Positions 45,470 through 50,983 of a stretch of DNA of 64,000 bases are shown here, one piece after another; the first letter of the stretch is position 1, and the number at the start of each line of letters is the position of its first letter. The position numbers and the translations under genes are program-made. Location: assembly GCF_003001675.1 (NCBI RefSeq), contig NZ_PVYW01000004.1:310001-374000 (forward strand), written 5' to 3'. Under the pieces are notes generated by a model. That model saw only the letters and a program-made list of their open reading frames with translations. It searched no databases and had not been told where the DNA came from. Source of the stretch: Cohnella sp. SGD-V74 (GTDB lineage: Bacteria; Bacillota; Bacilli; Paenibacillales; Paenibacillaceae).

Positions 45470-46150
45470 ATGTCGAAAACGATCGTGGATAAGCTGGGCC
45501 TGCGTAAATACGAGAGAGCCGCGATTTTGAACCAGCCGGAAGATGCGGATTATTTCGCGGAATTAACCGGGTACGATACGTCGCTCAAGGACGGCGGGTA
45601 TGATCTTGTGTTCGCCTTCGTGCTGGATATGGAATCGTTGAAGAACCTTGTCGGCCGCGTTATCGCCGAGGGGGCGCTGCGTCCGAGCGGCTATCTGTTC
45701 GTCGCCTATCCGAAGCTGGGCAATAAAAAGTACGCAACGTCCATTCACCGCGACGATCTGTTCCCTGGTCTCGGAGCGGACGAGGAAGGGTACATCTCGG
45801 GAAGCGCAGTTAAGTTCGCGAGGATGGTCGGACTGGACGACGTGTTTACCGTCGTCGGATTCAAGGAGGACTCCGCGGGCAAAGGGAAGATTTCGTCACG
45901 GGCGGCTCAGCCAAGCCAGCGGGTGGACGACTACGTCGAGCTGATCCCGAGCGTGGAGCAGGATTTGGCCGATTCCCCCGAGCTTCTGGCTTTCTACCGG
46001 TCGCTTACCCCGGGCTATCGCAAGGACTGGGCGCGATACGTCTACAGCGCCAAGCAAGAGGAGACGCGGGCGAATCGGCGGGAGGAGATGAAAGCGATCC
46101 TTAAGGCCGGCTACAAGAGCCGCGAGCTCTATCGGCAAGCCGAAAAATAG
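45470..46150 (+). CDS. YdeI/OmdA family protein with N-terminal DUF-like domain
   Basis: A 226-residue cytoplasmic protein. The C-terminal about 60 residues match the YdeI/OmpD-associated (OmdA) domain: LLAFYRSLTPGYRKDWARYV, then YSAKQEETRANRREEMKAIL. The N-terminal about 140 residues form an alpha/beta domain I do not recognise with confidence (YDLVFAFVLDMESLKNLVGR). In other bacteria OmdA-domain proteins are linked to stress or bacteriocin protection, but the biochemical role is unclear. GGAGG lies seven to eight bases before ATG 45470; an earlier ATG at 45419 lacks this. TATAAT at 45429-45434, after the sensor operon stop, may be its own -10. Confidence 0.75.
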   Translation: MSKTIVDKLGLRKYERAAILNQPEDADYFAELTGYDTSLKDGGYDLVFAFVLDMESLKNLVGRVIAEGALRPSGYLFVAYPKLGNKKYATSIHRDDLFPGLGADEEGYISGSAVKFARMVGLDDVFTVVGFKEDSAGKGKISSRAAQPSQRVDDYVELIPSVEQDLADSPELLAFYRSLTPGYRKDWARYVYSAKQEETRANRREEMKAILKAGYKSRELYRQAEK

Positions 46151-46260
46151 GAGGGTGAGTCTGTGGCGGACGGTAACGAGCGGTATCAATAGAGGATTAT
46201 CGGGCAATATCGTATTGCCAAAACCGTGAGCATAAGATAAGTTATAGATAATTGAATCGC

Positions 46261-46356
46261 AAAGAAACGGGTGCTTGATGAAGTCAGGCTGAGATTGCGG
46301 CCGTATGCCGCTGACCGTCGATCTGATCTGGGTAATGCCAGCGTAGAGACAACTTT
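46261..46356 (+). promoter_or_regulatory. TPP (thiamin pyrophosphate) riboswitch
   Basis: The THI-element core is plain: ACGGGTGC, then CTGAGA (46289-46294), GACC, then CTGATCTGGGTAATGCCAGC and GTAGAGA. The ends AAAG/CTTT close stem P1. With the terminator just downstream it should switch off the ECF transporter genes when TPP is abundant. Confidence 0.95.
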
Positions 46357-46385
46357 GGTCGCGTATCTTCGGATGCCGTGCGCTA

Positions 46386-46416
46386 GCCTGCCCTGCTCGT
46401 AAGGGGCGGGCTTTTT
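46386..46416 (+). terminator. Riboswitch-controlled terminator
   Basis: Stem GCCTGCCC/GGGGCGGGC and TTTTT lie 30 nt after the TPP aptamer and 124 nt before ykoE. This is the expected expression platform. Confidence 0.8.
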
Positions 46417-46539
46417 CGTTTGCGGTCAAGCCGCTTCGGGGCGTGCGGAGTACAAGGGCAGCCCGGAAGACTTCGTTGCTCGATTGCCCGTCTAAGCGTT
46501 CAAGAGGGAACACAATACGGGAGAGGAAGTGTTGAAGTT

Positions 46540-47148
46540 ATGGCGCAAGCCGGACAAGGGACGAAGTCCCGGGGATTGAAATTGACCGATATTCTGGTCA
46601 CGGTCGTGATCGCGGTCGTATTCGGCATCATCTACAAAATATGGGGCCCGATGTACGACGTCTTTAAGCCGCTCGGGCTGCATGCGGAGCAGTTGTCGTA
46701 CGGTATGTGGTTCCTGGCGGGGACGTTCGCGTTCCTCGTCATCCGCAAGCCGGGCGTGGCGGTGCTGGCCGAGGTCGCGGCGGCCAGCGTAAGCGCGCTG
46801 CTCGGCAGCGAATGGGGCATCTCGACGCTGTGGTACGGGCTGCTGCAGGGGCTCGGAGCTGAGATCGTGTTCGCGATCTTCCTGTACCGCAACTTCTCGG
46901 TGTGGGTCGCATCTCTGGCGGCGATCGGTGCGGCGGCGGGGTCGCTGGTGCTGGATTTTGGCTACGGCTACATTGAGCAGCTCACGGCGTGGAACTACAC
47001 GCTGTTCATCGGGCTGCGCCTGATCGGCAGCATCGTCATCGCGGGCATCTTCGCTTATTCGTTGGCCAAGGCGCTGGAGCTGACGGGCGTGACCAAGGTG
47101 CTGCGTCCCGCTTCGAAGCAGGACTTCGACGCGCTTCACCGGGCATGA
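46540..47148 (+). CDS. ykoE: ECF transporter substrate-binding (S) subunit for thiamin or its precursor (YkoE)
   Basis: A 202-residue membrane protein with about six segments, matching the YkoE S-component (LTDILVTVVIAVVFGIIYKI, then LGSEWGISTLWYGLLQGLGA). S-components bind the vitamin, here probably thiamin or hydroxymethylpyrimidine, as the TPP riboswitch upstream implies. ATG 46540 has GGGAGAGG upstream; an earlier start at 46420 lies close to the terminator and has no support. Its stop overlaps the start of the ATPase gene (ATGA). The protein is close to the usual YkoE size (199). Confidence 0.92.
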   Translation: MAQAGQGTKSRGLKLTDILVTVVIAVVFGIIYKIWGPMYDVFKPLGLHAEQLSYGMWFLAGTFAFLVIRKPGVAVLAEVAAASVSALLGSEWGISTLWYGLLQGLGAEIVFAIFLYRNFSVWVASLAAIGAAAGSLVLDFGYGYIEQLTAWNYTLFIGLRLIGSIVIAGIFAYSLAKALELTGVTKVLRPASKQDFDALHRA

Positions 47149-48755
47149 CGGGGGACGCGACAGCGACAGGCAGCGCTGCAGCGGCGCTTGCGGCGGATAC
47201 TTCAACGCCGACTGCGTACGGAGCATCCGCGGCGGCAGCATCTCCGGCGGCGACTATGCCCCGGGCATCCGTGCCGACGCCGGGTGAGCTGCCCGATGCC
47301 GTCGCGGCGGCAGTATCCAATCTGAAGCTGAAGTTCGCGGGAGAGGACGCCTTGTTGTTTCAAGGCGTTTCTCTTTCTTTTCGCAAAGGGGAGCATACGC
47401 TGCTGCTCGGGCCGAGCGGCTGCGGCAAGTCGACGCTGCTTCAGGTGATGAGCGGACTGATCCCCGGCTCGATCGAGGTGCCGATGATCGCCGACGAGAC
47501 GGTCGTGCCTGATCGGTGGGGATACGTGTTCCAGGACCCGGACACGCAGTTCTGTATGCCCTACGTAGGCGAGGAACTCGCCTTCGTGCTGGAAAACCTG
47601 CTGGTGCCGCGAGAGGAGATGCCCGCCCGCATCTCCCGGCATCTGCGGCAGGTGGGACTCGACCTGCCAGACCCCCACGTGCCGATTCAGACGCTCTCGC
47701 AAGGGATGAAGCAGCGGCTGGCGATCGCCGCAGCGCTGGCGACGGAGCCGGAGGTGCTGTTCCTGGACGAACCGACGGCGCTGCTCGACGAAGAGGGCAC
47801 GGAGCAGGTGTGGCGGACGATCCGTTCGGTCGCAAGCGGCATGACGCTGATTGCCGTCGAGCACAAAATCGAGGGAGTGGCCGATCTGTTCGACCGGGTC
47901 GTCGTTCTCGGACCTGGCGGAGAGATCGTGGCGGACGGCGCGGCTGCCGATGTATTCACGCAATATCGATCCGAGCTGAACCGCTACGGAATCTGGTATC
48001 CGGGCATTTGGGAGGAGCGGGACCGGAAGCTGGGCAAGCGGCCGGGGAAAGCTAAACCGGAAGCTTCGGATCGACCGATCGCCGAGCTCCAAAACTATCG
48101 CGGACTAAGAGGAACGAAGCCGGTCATCGAAGTGGAGAGCGCGGAGATCAAGCCGGGGGACTGGATCGCCGTCATGGGCGACAATGGAGCGGGCAAAAGC
48201 TCTCTCCTGCTCGCGATGATGCGCCTGATCAAGACGGAAGGGCTATGCAGGGTAGCTGGAGGGGAGTTTAGCAAGACGGAGCAACTGGCCGAACATGCGG
48301 CTTTCGTGTTCCAGAACCCGGAATTTCAATTCGTGACCCATACGGTTCGGGACGAGATCGAGTATTCGCTGCTGGTCGACGGAGTGGAAGCGGGAGAGCG
48401 GCGCGAGAGAAGCGAGCGGCTGATGGAGGAGCTGCAGCTAACCGATTGCGCGAGCCGCCATCCCTATCAATTGTCGATGGGACAGAAGAGGCGGCTCAGC
48501 GTCGCTTCGGCAATCGTCCGCGGCCAGCGGCTGCTGCTGCTCGACGAGCCGACGTTCGGGCTGGATGCGCGCAACACGTTCGCCATGCTGGAACTGCTGG
48601 AGCGCCTGCGCTCGGAAGGCATGGCGATTCTGATGGTGACGCACGATCCCCGGATTGCGGAACGCTATTGCACGGCCGTCTGGCGCGTTCGGGAGGGGAG
48701 GCTGGCGAATGCAATTGACCTTTCCGCATCGGCGGACATGGCTGCATCGCGTTAA
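47145..48755 (+). CDS. ykoD: ECF transporter double ATPase subunit (YkoD)
   Basis: A 536-residue protein with two ABC ATPase domains. Walker A motifs are TLLLGPSGCGKSTLLQVMSG (near residue 90) and AVMGDNGAGKSSLLLAMMRL (near 345); signatures are LSQGMKQRLAIAAALA and LSMGQKRRLSVASAIV. It powers uptake by the YkoE S-component. The first about 48 residues are an Ala/Thr/Pro-rich tract absent from usual YkoD proteins (about 490 aa); the true start could be downstream, for instance near the Met at about residue 38. The ATG at 47145 overlaps the ykoE stop and has no strong ribosome binding site, so coupling is likely. It overlaps the 5' end of ykoC by 47 nt. Confidence 0.9.
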   Translation: MTGDATATGSAAAALAADTSTPTAYGASAAAASPAATMPRASVPTPGELPDAVAAAVSNLKLKFAGEDALLFQGVSLSFRKGEHTLLLGPSGCGKSTLLQVMSGLIPGSIEVPMIADETVVPDRWGYVFQDPDTQFCMPYVGEELAFVLENLLVPREEMPARISRHLRQVGLDLPDPHVPIQTLSQGMKQRLAIAAALATEPEVLFLDEPTALLDEEGTEQVWRTIRSVASGMTLIAVEHKIEGVADLFDRVVVLGPGGEIVADGAAADVFTQYRSELNRYGIWYPGIWEERDRKLGKRPGKAKPEASDRPIAELQNYRGLRGTKPVIEVESAEIKPGDWIAVMGDNGAGKSSLLLAMMRLIKTEGLCRVAGGEFSKTEQLAEHAAFVFQNPEFQFVTHTVRDEIEYSLLVDGVEAGERRERSERLMEELQLTDCASRHPYQLSMGQKRRLSVASAIVRGQRLLLLDEPTFGLDARNTFAMLELLERLRSEGMAILMVTHDPRIAERYCTAVWRVREGRLANAIDLSASADMAASR

Positions 48756-49500
48756 TCCCGTCGTGAAGCTGGCGCTGTTTTCCCTCTGGTTTTTCGCGGT
48801 CATTCTCATTCACGACTTCAGCGTCATGGCGAACGTGGCGGCCGGTTCCGTGCTTCTGCTGCTCTGGTCGGGCCACCCGTGGCGCAGGCTGCTGCTGTAC
48901 GCTTCTCCTTTCCTTCTCGTATTCGTCTCCTCGACGACGGGCATGATGTTTTTCGGCAAAGGGGAGACGCCGTGGTTTTCTTGGGGCATCGTGAACATTA
49001 CCGAAGAAAGCTATTACCGCGGGCTTCATCTCGGCTTCAGGGCGCTGAGCATGGCCGCGGTAGGCCTGCTGTTCGGATTGACGACGCGGCCGGTCGACCT
49101 GTTCTACGCGCTGATGCAGAAGGCGAAGCTGCCGCCGAAATACGCGTACAGCTTTCTCGCAGCGATGCGGATGATCCCGATTCTCGTCGAGGAGTTCCAG
49201 ACGCTGCGCCACGCGCTGAAGATCCGGGGGATGAAGAAGCAGGGCAGACTGAAGACGTTCTATCAGACATGGCACCGCTATGCGATTCCGCTGCTGGCGC
49301 AGAGTATTCGCAGGGCGCACCGGATCGCGGTCGCGATGGAGGCGAAGCGGTTTGCCGGCCAGGGGCGAAGAACCTATTATTATATTATCGGGTTCAGCTG
49401 CCGGGACATCGTCTTCGGAGCCGTGACGGCCGCCTTGTTCGGACTGTCGTTCGCGCTGGGAACCCAGTGGCCGTACGTCGGCATTACCGACGTGCGATGA
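48709..49500 (+). CDS. ykoC: ECF transporter transmembrane T subunit (YkoC)
   Basis: A 263-residue EcfT-type permease with about five membrane segments. The conserved charged motif that docks the ATPases is seen in the C-terminal half: RMIPILVEEFQTLRHALKIR and RRAHRIAVAMEAKRFAGQGR. GGGAGGGGAGG lies seven bases before ATG 48709, inside the end of ykoD, so the genes overlap by 47 nt. It completes the thiamin-type ECF transporter. It is followed after 18 nt by an IF-3-like gene rather than ykoF. Confidence 0.92.
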   Translation: MQLTFPHRRTWLHRVNPVVKLALFSLWFFAVILIHDFSVMANVAAGSVLLLLWSGHPWRRLLLYASPFLLVFVSSTTGMMFFGKGETPWFSWGIVNITEESYYRGLHLGFRALSMAAVGLLFGLTTRPVDLFYALMQKAKLPPKYAYSFLAAMRMIPILVEEFQTLRHALKIRGMKKQGRLKTFYQTWHRYAIPLLAQSIRRAHRIAVAMEAKRFAGQGRRTYYYIIGFSCRDIVFGAVTAALFGLSFALGTQWPYVGITDVR

Positions 49501-49518
49501 GAAAAGAGGATGAAAGCC

Positions 49519-50010
49519 ATGCTGATCATGAATGAGAAAATAAAAGCTTCCGAGGTGAGGCTGACGGGAGCGGACGGAGAGGAACTGGGCATTGTCTCCA
49601 GAGACGAAGCTCTGGCTCTGGCGCGCGAGCTGAAGGCGGATCTGGTGTGCACTTCGCTGTTGAGCAGCCCGCCGCCGTGCAAGCTGACGCCGCGGGGAAC
49701 AGCCAAGCAGGCAGCCGCCAAGGAGAAGCAGCAGGAGCGCAAAGCCGCGCAACCCCCGAAGGTGAAGGAGATTCGCCTGACGCCCCACATTGAGGATCAC
49801 GACTACGAGACGAAGCGCCGTCAGGCGGAGAAGCTGCTCGCCTCCGGCGACGCGGTGCAGTTCGTCGTGAAGATTCAAGGCAAGGAAGGGCAGAAGGCGA
49901 AGGAACTGCTGGAGCAATTGCTGAAGGATCTTGCGGAGGTCGGGCGCAAAGCGACCGGCATCCAGCTCAGCGGCAAACAAGCGGCCGTCCAGGTCAACCC
50001 CGTTCGATAG
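49519..50010 (+). CDS. Divergent paralogue of translation initiation factor IF-3
   Basis: A 163-residue protein with both IF-3 domains. The N-domain is seen as IMNEKIKASEVRLTGADGEE, followed by LGIVSRDEALALARELKADL. The C-domain is seen as VKEIRLTPHIEDHDYETKRR. It differs from housekeeping IF-3 in the linker (no Tyr/Lys-rich DYGKYKYE-like motif; instead PPPCKLTPRGTAKQAAAKEK) and in the C-domain, where the basic GRE-type loop reads IQGKEGQKAKELLEQ. It is therefore probably a second, modified copy. ATG 49519 with AAAAGAGG nine bases upstream is chosen; starts at 49510 or 49528 are possible. It follows the thiamin ECF genes with an 18-nt gap and may share their TPP control. It is not next to rpmI/rplT, as the main infC gene would be. 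Confidence 0.85.
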   Translation: MLIMNEKIKASEVRLTGADGEELGIVSRDEALALARELKADLVCTSLLSSPPPCKLTPRGTAKQAAAKEKQQERKAAQPPKVKEIRLTPHIEDHDYETKRRQAEKLLASGDAVQFVVKIQGKEGQKAKELLEQLLKDLAEVGRKATGIQLSGKQAAVQVNPVR

Positions 50011-50062
50011 GGGCTGCCCGGCGGCCGCTTGGCATGCGGTGCGGATAGAGGAGAGCGGCTGC

Positions 50063-50983
50063 TTAGGCTTTCAAAGCAACGGCGATCTGAGCCGCGACTT
50101 TGGCGTTATGGTAGACGAGCGCGATGTTCGTCTCCAGGCTGCGTCCTTCGGTCAGTTCCTTGATGCGGGCGAGCAGGAACGGAGTGACCTTCTTGCCGGT
50201 AATGTTCTGTTCCTTGGCTTCGCTCAGCGCCTGTTGAATGACGCCTTCGATCTCGGCTTGCGGAAGGGCGGATTCGGCCGGCACCGGATTGGCGACGATG
50301 GCGCCGCCGTTCAGGCCAAGCTGCCATTTCTTCTTCAGCACGTCGGCGACTTGAGCAGGCTCGTCGAGGCGGAAGTCGACGCCGTAGCCGCTCTCCCGGG
50401 CGTAGAAGGACGGGAATTCGTCGGTCTTGTAGCCGATGACGGGCACGCCGTGCGTCTCCAAGTATTCGAGCGTGCGGCCGATGTCGAGAATCGACTTGGC
50501 CCCTGCGCATACGACGGCAACGTTCGTCTGCGCCAGCTCGGTCAGGTCGGCGGAGACGTCCATTGTCGTCTCGCCTTCGCGGTGCACGCCGCCGATGCCG
50601 CCGGTCGCGAACACCTCGATGCCGGCCAGCGCGGCGCCGATCATCGTGGCGGATACTGTCGTCGCGCCGATTTTGCCGGAGGACAGCAGGTAAGGGAAGT
50701 CGCGGCGGCTGACTTTCTCGACGGGATTGGAGGTCGCGAAGGCTTCCAGCTCTTGCTCGTTCAGGCCGATCTTAACGCGGCCTTCCATAATGCCGATCGT
50801 CGCCGGGACAGCTCCCTGCTCGCGAATGATCCGTTCGACGGTGCGGGCCATTTCGATGTTTTGCGGATAAGGCATGCCGTGGGAGATGATCGTCGTCTCG
50901 AGAGCGACGATCGGCTTGCCGGCGGAGAGCGCCTCGCGAACTTCGTCCGTATAGGTCAGGTACTGGCTGATTGCGTTGTTCAT
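50063..50983 (-). CDS. psuG: Pseudouridine-5'-phosphate glycosidase
   Basis: A 306-residue enzyme of the PsuG/YeiN family that breaks the C-C glycosidic bond of pseudouridine 5'-phosphate to uracil and ribose 5-phosphate. Family landmarks are [20 protein letters not shown] at about residues 27-46, [39 protein letters not shown] with the likely catalytic Lys, and [16 protein letters not shown]. It starts at ATG 50983 directly after the psuK stop (TAAATG), with GGAGAG inside the end of psuK. The kinase and glycosidase thus form a complete pseudouridine salvage route. Confidence 0.94.

Follow-up and report, generated by a model that had tools for sequence, protein, structure and literature searches.

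A divergent second IF-3 behind a TPP-riboswitch operon in Cohnella: an old paralogue that may bind the 30S subunit without checking start codons

The window analysed here is a 64,000-nucleotide stretch of the Cohnella sp. SGD-V74 genome. It carries the genes of an ECF thiamin transporter behind a thiamin pyrophosphate (TPP) riboswitch, and the last gene of the series encodes a divergent translation initiation factor IF-3, here called IF3p. The order is riboswitch, terminator, ykoE, ykoD, ykoC and IF3p, with these features:

46257..46367, forward strand: TPP riboswitch aptamer (RF00059; 51.7 bits, E 3e-9, full model 1-105)
46385..46412, forward strand: hairpin of a terminator following the aptamer, with a stem of 10 pairs including 7 G-C, then TTTT (sequence scan)
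46540..47148, forward strand: ykoE, ECF thiamin transporter S component (PF09819, E 2.1e-38 in a search begun at 46558; start set by reading the sequence)
47145..48755, forward strand: ykoD, double ABC ATPase (PF00005 in two stretches, E 3.4e-54)
48709..49500, forward strand: ykoC, T component, CbiQ (PF02361, E 6.7e-35)
49504..49509, forward strand: likely ribosome binding site of IF3p, AAGAGG (read from the sequence)
49510-50010, forward strand: open reading frame of IF3p, divergent second IF-3 (166 aa; 163 aa from the ATG at 49519)
49528..49731, forward strand: IF3_N match, domain and linker (profile search)
49759..50001, forward strand: IF3_C domain (profile search)

The ATG at 49519, with AAGAGG 9 nt before it, is a likelier start of IF3p than the ATG at 49510. 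The hairpin at 46385-46412 is the likely expression platform of the riboswitch. A default Rfam scan of the window at the gathering threshold returned no riboswitch, the aptamer lying just below the gathering score of 54.3 bits; the copies found in three further Cohnella species (see below) also fall just under it, so that default annotation would miss all of them.

The ykoC stop at 49500 leaves a gap of 18 nt to the IF3p start, as a sequence-only reading of this DNA had stated, and from this short distance we infer a single transcript that reaches IF3p and shares the leader with its aptamer and terminator. In this Cohnella the IF3p transcript is probably read through from the riboswitch operon and would probably fall when TPP is plentiful. 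The suggestion that the gene could be under TPP control is therefore plausible in this strain, on the strength of riboswitch, terminator and gap. In a scan of positions 46000-50100 the single promoter-like site lies within ykoC (49352-49380; shuffles predict 0.9) and none precedes the riboswitch, so part of IF3p expression could be TPP-independent. The same reading had put IF3p in the place of ykoF, which is off: ykoE comes first after the riboswitch and no ykoF was seen between the two. In Bacillus subtilis ykoF is the first and not the last gene of the operon. It appears as an additional gene of the operon in some species, according to the available part of PMC5037267.

IF3p passes all three curated cut-offs that apply to InfC: IF3_N (63.8 bits, cut-off 26.9), IF3_C (57.3 bits, cut-off 34.8) and the infC equivalog TIGR00168 (112.3 bits, cut-off 60). 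The presence of both IF-3 domains, read earlier from the translation, is thereby confirmed; the nearest named protein relatives are from Cohnella. That IF3p is the sole InfC of the genome was rejected, as a genome-wide search gave two IF3_C matches, each above the cut-off. The other, housekeeping copy adjoins rpmI and rplT (named from their open reading frames) with an L20-leader match below the gathering score, and IF3p lies outside this infC-rpmI-rplT locus. The two proteins are about 35% identical, with contact residues replaced in IF3p, and the gene is a true paralogue as had been proposed. In the available part of a Paenibacillus paper, infC appears solely as the housekeeping gene with the L20 leader (PMC5670726).

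The thiamin link is a feature of part of the genus. Five of 37 Cohnella genomes have ykoE some 3 kb upstream of IF3p, so the linkage extends beyond one strain but is not general, and the wider connection with thiamin that the sequence-only reading had raised is not borne out. Cohnella sp. AR92 has ykoE on a different contig from IF3p; two further ykoE matches are weak (35% and 26% identity) and probably belong to other transporters. In three species, C. cholangitidis, C. endophytica and C. panacarvi, a genome search found no ykoE anywhere, yet a TPP riboswitch (51.2-52.6 bits) and its terminator precede IF3p by about 100-300 nt; between riboswitch and IF3p these species hold differing remnants of the ykoC 3' end. 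The varied remnants indicate that they once had ykoEDC and lost it, probably in more than one event, keeping the riboswitch and IF3p, which makes TPP control of IF3p plausible in those species also. In 6 of the 14 rows of the relevant Cohnella sub-clade (from a quick tree, SH-aLRT 86) IF3p is present with no riboswitch or ykoC within 1.5 kb upstream; these six species speak against a necessary link. The upstream TPP scan took in 29 of the 33 other matching Cohnella genomes; at the gathering threshold TPP was found in 2 of 12 longer Cohnella loci, and more hold a sub-threshold element. No ykoC or TPP element lies upstream at the tested loci outside Cohnella, some of which are incomplete.

An initiation factor tied in its function to thiamin or nutrient supply would agree with the 18-nt gap, with the riboswitch and terminator, and with their survival beside IF3p in the three species devoid of ykoEDC. 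We judge it very unlikely, given the five linked genomes in 37, the lack of the arrangement at the loci tested outside Cohnella, and a family far older than the link. A thiamin-specific family was rejected on the same ykoE count and on the varied neighbours elsewhere: TPP regulation would be a local arrangement and not part of the core function of IF3p.

The distribution of IF3p was followed through samples of increasing breadth. Within the genus, matches of at least 195 bits occur in 33 of 37 genomes, while housekeeping copies reach at most 87 bits; G002 holds two IF3p fragments, and no match was obtained in G003, G013 and G030 (78% complete). For family and order, presence was defined by a best match better than 1e-30 and counted by hand. 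IF3p occurs in 351 of 394 family genomes, a number that includes the partial- or split-looking copies of G002, G177 and G361, and is missing in 43, six of which (G090, G184, G290, G292, G293, G295) may retain fragments, each giving two or three weak matches. Some matches contain one internal stop (e.g., G025). Outside the family the order sample has IF3p in 103 of 126 genomes, namely 94/104 in family f6, 7/8 in f7 and one of one in both f2 and f11; no strong match occurs among the 12 genomes of f3, f4, f5, f8, f9 and f10 (1 to 4 genomes each). In the class sample (n = 299, hand count) 26 of 27 own-family genomes and 22 of 272 others reach at least 196 bits, the latter confined to f32 (Brevibacillus) and f21 (Aneurinibacillus), both recognised from close named proteins, and f37, placed close to an Ammoniphilus protein by the tree; the best score after these is 134 bits. 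In the phylum sample (n = 299, hand count), from which f21, f32 and f37 are absent, none of 294 genomes outside the family exceeds 129 bits.

A tree was built from E. coli IF-3, 68 paralogues and 20 housekeeping rows, both sets hand-picked from far more matches, with identical rows dropped; the paralogues all fall on one side of a long stem with full support (100/100). Judged from these sequences, IF3p is an old second IF-3 of single origin, widespread in the Paenibacillus/Cohnella order, in Brevibacillus and in Aneurinibacillus. A few copies from Paenibacillus (P0200, P0204, P0210, L124) cluster with the Brevibacillus ones (branch 95/92), suggestive of either gene transfer or loose naming.

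IF3p is under strong purifying selection. Between this strain and C. phaseoli dN/dS is 0.038/0.427, about 0.09 (0.005/0.135 for the housekeeping infC), on which ground a pseudogene was rejected, and 32 columns are invariant among 61 IF3p sequences. A decaying, useless copy of infC might account for the long stem branch, the 43 family genomes that lack the gene and the fragments in a few; with this selection, and with retention in most family genomes and beyond, it is hardly credible.

Genomic context elsewhere gives little direction, as no conserved neighbour in the surveyed loci points to a process. Outside the linked Cohnella the neighbours vary, with topoisomerase III, DUF445-like genes (both labels are our own reading of the proteins, not family matches) and a small divergent gene, none of them general. 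A conserved operon partner was rejected because the commonest neighbour, the small divergent gene, occurs in 22 of 80 named loci, antisense shadow reading frames aside. This gene, of about 100 aa and divergent from IF3p, is conserved in many Paenibacillus lineages (46 loci, some genomes counted twice; e.g., L206, near offset -380).

Some IF3p copies probably have promoters of their own, to judge from the motif TATAAT, which occurs in 34 of 139 distinct unlinked upstream regions (related sequences, not independent ones) against a mean of 11.4 and a maximum of 18 in 50 shuffles. Rfam scans of 57 loci (three sets of 19, one locus being the housekeeping one) returned three TPP and five c-di-AMP riboswitches, three cspA-like elements and, at the housekeeping locus, the L20 leader. 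Downstream of IF3p in four Cohnella (L018, L020, L024, L029) a c-di-AMP riboswitch stands about 70-130 nt away on the same strand, so that IF3p precedes a c-di-AMP-controlled gene there. The matches resembling the cspA thermoregulator are from three Paenibacillus and score 48-67 bits (gathering score 78); two (L044, L045) lie on the strand of IF3p, some 400 nt upstream, and hint at a cold-shock neighbour, and one (L043) is downstream on the other strand. Upstream of the IF3p Asn codon, at a distance of about 30-60 nt, terminator-like candidate hairpins stand in L034-L047, L174-L212 (mostly Paenibacillus clade g16) and L120-L142 (clade g4); the candidate lies between TATAAT and the ribosome binding site in one Paenibacillus clade and abuts that site in another. 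Attenuation or self-regulation by such leaders is possible.

The residues of IF3p were compared with canonical IF-3 in E. coli numbering over the 68 paralogues and 20 housekeeping rows. In canonical IF-3, Arg91, Arg123, Arg125 and Arg159 lie at codon, mRNA and anticodon and the linker on h23/h24, according to the available part of PMC5037330; Arg123, Arg125 and Arg159 correspond to Arg131, Arg133 and Arg168 in our own numbering, the last through its beta-hairpin position. The same part of that source states that Tyr75 mutants lose fidelity and keep full 30S affinity (PMC5037330). The available part of PMC8266586 held no residue data on IF-3.

In the linker, Asp69 and Tyr70 each survive in 1/68 paralogues and Gly71 in 45/68, against 20/20 housekeeping rows for all three, and Tyr75 is present in none of the paralogues, whereas 18 of the housekeeping rows have it and two have Phe. 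IF3p thus lacks both the canonical linker motif (MDYGK / MDY..K) and the platform tyrosine. It likewise lacks the canonical arginines at codon and anticodon: Arg131 is found in 0/68 paralogues and 20/20 housekeeping rows, while Arg133 has become Lys in 66/68 and Arg168 Lys in 68/68, both kept in the housekeeping rows. Positions 135-137, including His137, are kept in housekeeping rows and deleted in all paralogues, with a gap placement that depends on the alignment. The earlier expectation that linker and C-domain residues contacting rRNA had changed thus holds across the 68 paralogues, at the contacts with 16S rRNA, mRNA and tRNA. Other positions facing 16S rRNA are retained: Lys94, Glu95 and Lys110 in 68/68, and Arg or Lys at 116 in 68/68. 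Retention is weak at Arg112 (44/68), at position 147 (Arg or Lys in 16/68, Arg147 in 15/68), at Lys72 (6/68) and at Lys79 (21/68), so that contacts with the 30S subunit would be weaker or different, and affinity may be low or absent. Arg99 (1/68) decides nothing, being present in only 10/20 housekeeping rows.

Other positions have become fixed in IF3p. Cys55, Ser57, Ser61, Leu67, Gln113, Leu152 and Gly161 are invariant in the alignment of paralogues, and Gln164 and Ser166 nearly so; close relatives carry the signature DLVC.SL.SSPPPC.L in the N domain and linker. The Cys44/Cys54 pair (cysteine at E. coli position 55) occurs in 67/68 paralogues, in 61/61 rows of alignment A2 and in 0/20 housekeeping rows, and in the structural model would flank one beta hairpin of the N domain.

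From the replacement of the codon, anticodon and platform contacts, together with the keeping of other residues that face 16S rRNA, a factor still directed to the 30S subunit and devoid of proof-reading may be deduced. In this preferred account, to which we give about even chances, IF3p keeps 30S docking, does not proof-read start codons and serves in storage, assembly or permissive initiation. The IF-3 fold could also serve another RNA. In that case IF3p would work off the ribosome and with a new surface, as an RNA-binding regulator whose target is an mRNA, a small RNA or its own leader, as the loss of Tyr75, Arg131 and His137 in every paralogue, the new invariant positions and the candidate leader hairpins of two Paenibacillus clades would allow; we hold it rather unlikely, as the four 16S-facing positions conserved throughout, and an overall charge and domain layout that match IF-3, speak for the ribosome.

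The predicted structure has the two-domain IF-3 fold with a helical linker. Confidence is high in the C domain (pLDDT blocks 90-94, 81 in the final three residues) and low in the linker (52-54), and the prediction does not fix how the two domains lie to each other (pTM 0.51). Foldseek superposed the C domain on 1tig (rmsd 1.1 over 86 columns) and the N domain on 1tif (1.7 over 74). Its matches also include, by their titles, mitoribosomal assembly intermediates (7pua_IB, 7pub_IB) and IF-3 on the 30S subunit of a RimM knock-out (9ss1). These entries would suit a factor acting mainly in 30S assembly or quality control, on maturing rather than initiating subunits, and such a role would also fit the loss of codon-reading residues beside retained rRNA-facing positions. 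Ordinary IF-3, however, dominates the same Foldseek list, and no ribosome-assembly gene was recognised among the neighbours, a minority of which were identified, so that assembly as the main role appears improbable.

Returning to a 30S-directed factor without proof-reading, IF3p would dock on 30S subunits, whether free or still maturing, in or close to the site used by IF-3, and once docked would leave start codons unchecked. Its role beside housekeeping IF-3 might be anti-association, storage or assembly, or else permissive initiation. A broader proposal, speculative and of low probability as a whole, is that much of the order and at least two more lineages run two IF-3s, the second acting on the 30S subunit without codon reading, with Cys44/Cys54 as a redox switch and possible control by small molecules (TPP in some Cohnella).

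In general IF-3 is regarded as one essential factor. A widespread second copy with changed residues for codon inspection and platform contact on a conserved fold would provide a natural experiment in which the fidelity, anti-association and RNA-binding roles of IF-3 are separated. No description of the IF3p family was found in the literature searched (openly licensed PMC papers). Sources that give these proteins a name call them 'translation initiation factor IF-3', so studies of Paenibacillus or Brevibacillus may have merged both copies.

Three known systems invite comparison. The operon has the riboswitch, ykoE, ykoD, ykoC order of the available description of ykoEDC (PMC5037267); it differs in its final cistron, an IF-3 gene, and in that ykoF was not seen. 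With canonical IF-3 (InfC; TIGR00168, PF05198 + PF00707) IF3p shares domain order, predicted fold and similar charge, and it departs from it in its 35% identity, the loss of Asp69-Tyr70, Tyr75 and Arg131, the change of Arg168 to Lys, the deletion of three residues including His137, the new Cys pair and a location away from rpmI/rplT. The mitochondrial IF-3s (yeast Aim23, human mtIF3) are, like IF3p, divergent members of the group, and Aim23 is unable to replace E. coli IF-3, yet alters ribosome association, as far as the available part of PMC6147165 goes. The effect of Aim23 on E. coli ribosomes depends on terminal extensions, whereas IF3p has the length of IF-3 and no such extensions; and a mitochondrial IF-3 serves its own ribosome as the IF-3 there, whereas IF3p coexists with a canonical one.
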